Below are positions 51,856 to 52,796 of a DNA stretch of 64,000 nt, in pieces (position 1 is the stretch's first letter; every line of letters begins with the position of its first letter). The stretch spans positions 4,650,001 to 4,714,000 of the forward strand of contig NZ_CP155619.1 in assembly GCF_039697315.1 (NCBI RefSeq), read 5' to 3'. Below the pieces are notes generated by a model. That model was not told the origin of the DNA. It saw only the letters and a program-made list of their open reading frames with translations, and did not search any database. The translations under genes were made by a program, and so were the position numbers. This DNA comes from Pseudomonas abietaniphila (lineage in GTDB: Bacteria > Pseudomonadota > Gammaproteobacteria > Pseudomonadales > Pseudomonadaceae).

Positions 51856-52227
51856 GTGTCGCGTCGTCTGCCGCTGGTTGTTCTGTTCGCTGTATTGGCC
51901 CTGTGGCTCGCCGCCGTTTATGGCGTGCGTTACGGCCTAATGGAAGACGTGCAATGGGTCGGACTGTGTTCTGAGGGCGCCGAGAAGTGGCAATGTCAGG
52001 TGCGCTCGAATCTGGGCCTGATGATCCATTTCGGAGTATTTGGCTGGGGCGCGCTGATCGCCTCGGTGATCGCGTTCTTTGTGCCGCATCGGGCGGGTCG
52101 AGCACTGGCGCTGCTCGGTTTGTTGCTGGGGATGCTGGCGCTCGTGTTGTATTCGGCGAGCCTTGCGGTGTTCGCCGTGGTGATTGCCGGGTTGCGGCTG
52201 GTGCGGGCGACGAACGTTCGACCCTGA
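51856..52227 (+). CDS. Small membrane protein, hypothetical
   Basis: GTG 51856 gives 123 residues; an open frame upstream to 51706 has no supported start. Three or four hydrophobic segments are seen: LPLVVLFAVLALWLAAVYGV (~4-24), MIHFGVFGWGALIASVIAFF (~56-76), and GRALALLGLLLGMLALVLYS running into ASLAVFAVVIAGL (~80-115). A periplasmic loop has two Cys (GLCSEGAEKWQCQ). The family is not recognised. It is convergent with the sRNA candidate, sharing the terminator at 52251. Confidence 0.7.
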   Translation: MSRRLPLVVLFAVLALWLAAVYGVRYGLMEDVQWVGLCSEGAEKWQCQVRSNLGLMIHFGVFGWGALIASVIAFFVPHRAGRALALLGLLLGMLALVLYSASLAVFAVVIAGLRLVRATNVRP

Positions 52228-52249
52228 AAAACCCAAACGCCAGACAGCA

Positions 52250-52628
52250 TAAAGGGGAGCCGAGGCTCCCCTTTAAATCGTTGCACGTGCTCTTTTTTTA
52301 TTGTTTTAGGGCGGTCTATTGTTGTTTTTGGCAACCAGTCCCTTCACAGCGTTCTTCAGTGATCCCCATCCGGGATACAAGAGCAAACGTATTTTTTTGA
52401 GCGCTGATCTGCTTTGATCCAATTCGCTTGTGGCGAAGATCCAACCCGTTCCGGACGCTACCTGAAGGTAGTTTTATTGTTCTCTGTCGGGCTGCGAGGC
52501 CAAGACCTCGCTAAAAGCACATCTACTCCAAAAAAATCTGTTGGCTGCGTCTCTGTACCGTTGTTCTTGTTATGTCAGAGCCGATTCATCTTATTTTTAT
52601 TGGGTTTTCACATTTTGTTCTTGTTATG
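52250..52628 (-). ncRNA. Candidate Crc/Hfq-sequestering sRNA (CrcX/CrcY/CrcZ family)
   Basis: An AT-rich stretch without a credible protein. Read on the minus strand it is rich in A/C Hfq-Crc motifs: CATAACAAGAACAA occurs twice (52628-52615 and 52574-52561), and ACAATAAAAC, AAAAACAACAATAG and AAAACAATAAAAAAAG follow. A sigma-54 promoter with exact GG-N10-GC spacing lies at 52653-52640, putting the start near 52628, and a hairpin at 52275-52251 would end it, giving ~380 nt. The length and motif style fit CrcZ-type RNAs, which bind Hfq/Crc and lift carbon catabolite repression. CbrB-like half-sites are ~110-150 bp upstream. Which member it is cannot be told here. Confidence 0.8.
52251..52275. 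terminator. Terminator hairpin shared by sRNA and small membrane gene
   Basis: AAAGGGGAGCC and GGCTCCCCTTT form an 11-bp stem with a 2-3 nt loop. Only short T-runs follow on both strands, so strength is uncertain. It would end the minus-strand sRNA and the plus-strand gene that stops at 52227. Confidence 0.7.
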
Positions 52629-52639
52629 CAGGAGATATA

Positions 52640-52655
52640 GCAGGTGCCGTGCCAA
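52640..52655 (-). promoter_or_regulatory. Sigma-54 (RpoN) promoter for the sRNA
   Basis: The minus strand reads TTGGCACGGCACCTGCTA: GG (52653-52652), exactly ten bases, then GC (52641-52640), within the TGGCAC-N5-TTGC consensus. It predicts transcription from about 52628. Confidence 0.8.
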
Positions 52656-52735
52656 CTTTTTAAATGCGTTTAAAATCAATGAGTTGTGAAATTTCTGAGT
52701 TTTCAAGACCGGCGTTGCTGGCCCATTCTGTTTCC

Positions 52736-52778
52736 GTGTTACCCGTATTCTGTTTTGGAATCCCGCCATCGGTAACAC
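52736..52778. promoter_or_regulatory. Inverted GTGTTAC/GTAACAC half-sites, possible CbrB enhancer
   Basis: GTGTTAC (52736-52742) and GTAACAC (52772-52778) are perfect 7-bp inverted copies 29 bp apart, ~108-150 bp upstream of the predicted sRNA start. The TGTTAC/GTAACA half-sites agree with the CbrB motif described for crcZ/crcY promoters, though the published spacing (about 14 bp) differs. Confidence 0.55.
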
Positions 52779-52796
52779 AATGTGTTTCGTGTGCCG

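Follow-up and report, generated by a model that had tools for sequence, protein, structure and literature searches.

The intergenic gap at 52228-52796 of the window (the whole analysed stretch of 64,000 nucleotides from Pseudomonas abietaniphila) holds, in our firm view, a bona fide small RNA (sRNA) gene of the CrcZ family, the third in this genome and, by locus and tree, of the crcX type, whose product would be a decoy for Hfq/Crc activated by CbrB and sigma-54. When the window was scanned over its full length, Rfam gave a single match, CrcZ (RF01675), at 52627-52219 on the minus strand with 301 bits against a cut-off of 95. The covariance model was matched end to end (positions 1-398 of 398), and its 5′ end coincides with the start predicted from the sigma-54 box. 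This covariance search had been proposed in a preliminary description of the same DNA, which read the gap as a CrcX/Y/Z-type RNA, and the reading is borne out by the match, by promoter elements kept in 32/32 related copies and by the presence of CbrB-like, RpoN, Hfq and Crc genes. The remark that an ordinary gene caller would miss the gene holds for protein gene callers, whereas a routine Rfam scan finds the RNA at once. The RNA is also predicted to fold more stably than expected, with a z-score of -3.2 and none of 100 shuffles as stable. The 569-bp gap extends from a small membrane gene to a GH17 gene, and Pfam recognized GH17, OpuAC-type (betX-like), DUF485 and SSF symporter (actP-like) products among the neighboring genes, in agreement with the glucan enzyme, small membrane gene, betX and actP named earlier. 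RNAs of this kind are already known, and what the window gene adds is that the genome truly has a third one; both this copy number and the subfamily go beyond the preliminary description. The existence of the gene, its full-length family match, conserved promoter elements and motifs, apparent crcY origin and partner genes can all be read from sequence.

The upstream region carries elements of a putative CbrB-dependent promoter. A sigma-54 -24/-12 box of the form GG-N10-GC (TTGGCACGGCACCTGC) is read directly on the minus strand at 52653-52640, exactly where it had been placed, and it is present in 32/32 copies of the clade; the stricter pattern TGGCAC-N5-YTGC also occurs in the gap, and in only 4 of 2000 shuffled gaps. 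From this box the RNA is predicted to start at 52628/52627. Farther upstream, the inverted half-sites noticed earlier were recovered on the minus strand as two CbrB-type subsites, TGTTAC of the forward type at 52777-52772 and GTAACA of the reverse type at 52742-52737, with starts 35 bp apart, an arrangement (TGTTAC-N29-GTAACA) that appeared in none of 2000 shuffled gaps. All 32 copies of the same locus class combine the sigma-54 box with an exact TGTTAC and an exact GTAACA, and the columns conserved to at least 90% in the clade promoters spell TGTGTTACCG and CGGGTAACACGG. The two subsites are spaced 34-36 bp apart in 31/32 window-type and 50/60 crcY copies, and 19-22 bp apart in 48/49 crcZ copies. 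Between box and subsites lies an exact integration host factor (IHF) consensus (YAANNNNTTGATW) at 52674-52686 on the minus strand, which is found in 20/32 window-type, 25/60 crcY and 3/49 crcZ copies, is absent in exact form from the promoters of crcY and crcZ in the window genome, and turned up by chance in 24 of 5000 sequences when the 260 nt upstream were shuffled by mononucleotide. In the accessible part of PMC6296734, the P. putida crcZ and crcY promoters are described with three CbrB subsites (F1, R1, and R2), IHF and sigma-54 sites, the centers of neighboring subsites being 20-25 bp apart (PMC6296734). Unlike that arrangement, the window promoter has no exact match for the middle subsite, a search for a third exact CbrB subsite upstream of the RNA having returned only the two that stand 35 bp apart.

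Inside the RNA, the most prominent feature is the recurrence of A-rich motifs of the Hfq type. The repeat reported in the preliminary description, CATAACAAGAACAA occurring twice at a distance of 54 bp, was confirmed (on the plus strand, TTGTTCTTGTTATG at 52561-52574 and 52615-52628); further A-rich motifs exist as it had stated, yet these number four by the AAnAAnAA pattern, not three. The resulting six motifs on the minus strand are AACAAGAA at 52618-52625 and again at 52564-52571, AATAAAAA at 52594-52601, AACAATAA at 52474-52481 and again at 52298-52305, and AAAAACAA at 52322-52329. The mean in dinucleotide-shuffled gaps was 0.94, and six were reached in none of 2000. Five runs of (ARN)4 were counted in the RNA, in keeping with the five to six A-rich Hfq/Crc motifs expected of the family, and every one of 146 distinct family copies carries 5-7 AAnAAnAA motifs. 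Titration of Hfq/Crc by P. aeruginosa CrcZ, through A-rich ARN stretches that engage the distal face of Hfq, is reported or proposed in the accessible parts of two papers (PMC4063720, PMC6422490), and the window RNA is most likely a decoy of the same kind. By homology, on exhaustion of good carbon sources CbrB at the TGTTAC/GTAACA sites, helped by a DNA bend due to IHF, would activate sigma-54 RNA polymerase at the -24/-12 box, yielding an RNA that titrates Hfq/Crc through its A-rich stretches. By soaking up this repressor, RNAs of the family are thought to let cells switch to poorer food. Transcription of the window RNA, its control by CbrB, sigma-54 and IHF, its binding of Hfq/Crc and its physiological effect are features that we infer from these studied relatives.

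The body of the RNA is conserved beyond its A-rich motifs. A consensus fold calculated from 24 of the 32 clade copies shows changes on both sides in 16 of 81 pairs, for example in the terminal hairpin and in a CUACC/GGUAG helix. Conservation is highest in CGUUUGCUCUUG, which is exact in 138/146 copies and is not A-rich. According to the consensus fold and to pair counts over the 146 copies, this stretch can pair with AAC on its upstream side and with AAGAGCA on its downstream side, the latter through UGCUCUU (52379-52385 on the minus strand, with its proposed partner at 52294-52288); AUUUUUUUGG can likewise pair with CAAAAAAAU. A possible long-range scaffold would thus join 52379-52400 of the window with 52288-52294 and with 52528-52542. 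In the printed Rfam structure line GCUCUU is unpaired. Pairs of the scaffold helix H3 are nearly invariant, with A/A at one of them in 3/49 Z copies and a non-standard outermost pair in 49/49 Z copies, and position 94/234 of the U-run helix is C/C in 49/49 Z copies. With so little variation in these pairs, and with some of them interrupted in crcZ, covariation is no proof here and the scaffold is put forward as a proposal; nor is it claimed as new, since PMC12510878, which in its accessible part cites CrcZ papers, may treat the structure of the RNA. The functional 3′ end is expected at the hairpin near 52250. A terminal hairpin had been described with an 11-bp stem, and it is indeed present, as a palindrome at 52250-52275 whose arms (52250-52261 and 52264-52275) measure 12 bp. 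A simple terminator scan did not report it as a minus-strand terminator, and no strong U-run follows it. The palindrome begins 22 bp past the end of the small membrane gene, which is convergent with the RNA and stops at 52227, and it may serve the transcripts of both genes.

The window genome contains three CrcZ-family matches above the cut-off, with 326, 312, and 301 bits. The crcZ copy has a CbrB-type activator gene on one side and a pcnB-like gene on the other, and the crcY copy is flanked by genes for HMG-CoA lyase (mvaB-like) and for acyl-CoA dehydrogenase, all of these names coming from reading the translations. We take PP3540 to be mvaB. Crc is encoded by a 263-aa open reading frame (ORF) flanked by a pyrE-like and an rph-like ORF; among solved structures its best relatives are 2myi_A, which scores 583 bits and is labeled exodeoxyribonuclease III, and 4jg3_A, the Catabolite repression control protein, with 541 bits. 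Hfq and the sigma-54 factor RpoN are also encoded, so that together with CbrB, as judged from its translation, all four partner genes are in the genome. In P. putida, crcY is listed as PP3540b in the accessible part of PMC6296734. The window copy resembles CrcZ (RF01675; P. aeruginosa, P. putida, and others) in its model match, A-rich motifs, sigma-54 box and CbrB-type subsites, but it does not adjoin cbrB, its subsites are 35 bp rather than about 20 bp apart, and it belongs to a separate clade. CrcY (P. putida PP3540b, Azotobacter vinelandii) is the closest paralogue, sharing the 34-36 bp spacing, the conserved core and the U-run/A-run helix; however, the window copy occupies a different locus, and the genome has a crcY at its mvaB-like gene as well.

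How widely the third gene occurs was judged from 199 genomes of the genus, in a sample where stricter filters can lose weak matches. Every one of the 199 has at least one CrcZ-family match, with two in 152 genomes (Z+Y and Z+X pooled), one in 22, and three or four in 25. Of the 24 genomes with three or four matches besides the window's own, the betX locus is occupied in 20, whereas two (G051 and G086) have tandem crcY copies instead, one (G151) has two extra copies elsewhere, and one (G082) falls outside the assigned classes. A maximum-likelihood tree was built from the 166 profile matches in loci, of which one (L215, below 200 bits and at a contig end) was left out; merging of 19 exact duplicates reduced the remaining 165 sequences to 146 distinct ones. 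In this tree all 32 copies at the window-type (betX) locus form one clade (support 85), which joins 32 crcY-type copies (support 98), and these 32 crcY-type copies come from genomes that also hold a window-type copy; a wider crcY group has a support of 99, and the Z clade, under midpoint rooting, one of 47. This placement makes a duplication of crcY, later than the splitting off of the lineage, the most likely origin of the third gene. At 13 of the 32 window-type loci a GH17 gene was not found in the stretch, and a search for spread on plasmids gave no match in 72,556 plasmid records.

A closer comparison of the locus was made in 80 named records, the best-ranking of 569 relatives that a search with the GH17 protein brought up, a set that does not cover the genus. 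Each of these best 80 carries the same block of four genes: betX, GH17, the one for the small membrane protein, and a conserved gene of 432 aa that has no Pfam match and looks hydrolase-like by eye. The RNA lies between GH17 and the membrane gene in 15 of these best 80 of 569, and none was found in the fetched stretch of the other 65; gaps that hold the RNA measure 588-764 bp, and those without it have a median length of 122 bp. The 15 RNA-bearing records are labeled P. abietaniphila, P. bohemica, P. graminis (three), P. syringae GR12-2, P. putida 700447 and Pseudomonas species, and each of these genomes has three CrcZ-family matches.

By its locus and its place in the tree, the window copy is best called crcX, as a putative counterpart of the gene of P. 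syringae DC3000: it sits in a clade of its own and at a locus of its own, apart from crcZ and crcY. The accessible parts of four papers (PMC8871633, PMC6296734, PMC8657755, PMC4063720) report CrcX, a further family member besides CrcZ and CrcY, from P. syringae. A hint in the same direction is that the record labeled P. syringae GR12-2 (L045) has the RNA at the same locus as the window copy. Of 22 genomes with the locus, 15 showed an Hrp marker, against 0 of 6 others (locus status being checked in two of those six), and the window genome had no match to it. Filiatrault 2013 is said to have treated CrcX as a P. syringae feature. If CrcX was so regarded, its presence in P. abietaniphila-like species represents a modest extension.

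Other explanations of the gap have to be weighed against a functional decoy. That it holds the 5′ leader of a gene, or a small coding gene, might be entertained on account of the mechanical ORFs that span it, but the RNA points away from GH17 and is convergent with the small membrane gene, and hence leads no gene, and a non-coding family is matched along its entire length; on this orientation and match we reject the protein-coding or leader reading, to which we give a very small probability. A copy that is real and yet decaying, a crcY duplicate that has lost its expression or importance, would agree with its score of 301 bits, the lowest of the three, and with the two other copies in the genome. 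We nevertheless consider such decay improbable, given that all 32 clade copies, which come from many species, retain the motifs, the promoter elements and the core. It is more improbable still that the gene encodes a related sRNA with a sigma-54 promoter which acts by base-pairing of its CGUUUGCUCUUG core and not by sequestration of Hfq/Crc. The near-invariance of this core (138/146 copies) and its lack of A-rich character would suit a base-pairing seed, although the core can pair within the RNA itself and the A-rich motifs are kept equally well, so that a seed function is the less likely one.

Taking the gene as a functional third decoy, a broader scenario may be sketched, one that is speculative and, as a whole, rather unlikely to be right in every part. 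CrcX would be an old decoy that a single Pseudomonas lineage, broader than P. syringae, acquired one time in its betX/GH17/membrane-gene block, with crcY as the donor, and has retained for an input or output of its own and not for dosage alone; the RNA of the family would be held by the long-range scaffold (UGCUCUU/AAGAGCA together with AUUUUUUUGG/CAAAAAAAU, unbroken in X and Y and interrupted in Z), which would present the A-rich sites. In other respects the window gene is as the known family predicts. Since the genome has three decoy genes, a study of carbon catabolite repression in this lineage must delete three and not two. Moreover, matched loci with and without the RNA, together with its crcY ancestry, make it possible to ask cleanly why the number of near-identical Hfq/Crc decoys that Pseudomonas lineages keep is one, two or three.

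Some minor observations concern the loci of the family. In six of the best 80 of 569 relatives (L060, L076, L090, L094, L109, and L110) the gap between GH17 and the membrane gene measures 1.2-1.3 kb and contains an open frame of 347-408 aa that is RHS-like by eye, and because 6/80 hold such a frame this gap seems to take insertions. Two genomes carry a tandem pair of CrcY copies, and not one, at the mvaB-like gene (L201 in G051, L197 in G086), and a genome with four matches (G151) has extra CrcY-like copies (L168 and L175) at loci without any marker gene. Lastly, two CrcY-type copies without an mvaB-like gene within the stretch (L205 in G181, L207 in G149) adjoin ORFs that by eye are OmpA/phosphate-binding-like and sigma-factor-like, which marks a shifted crcY locus.
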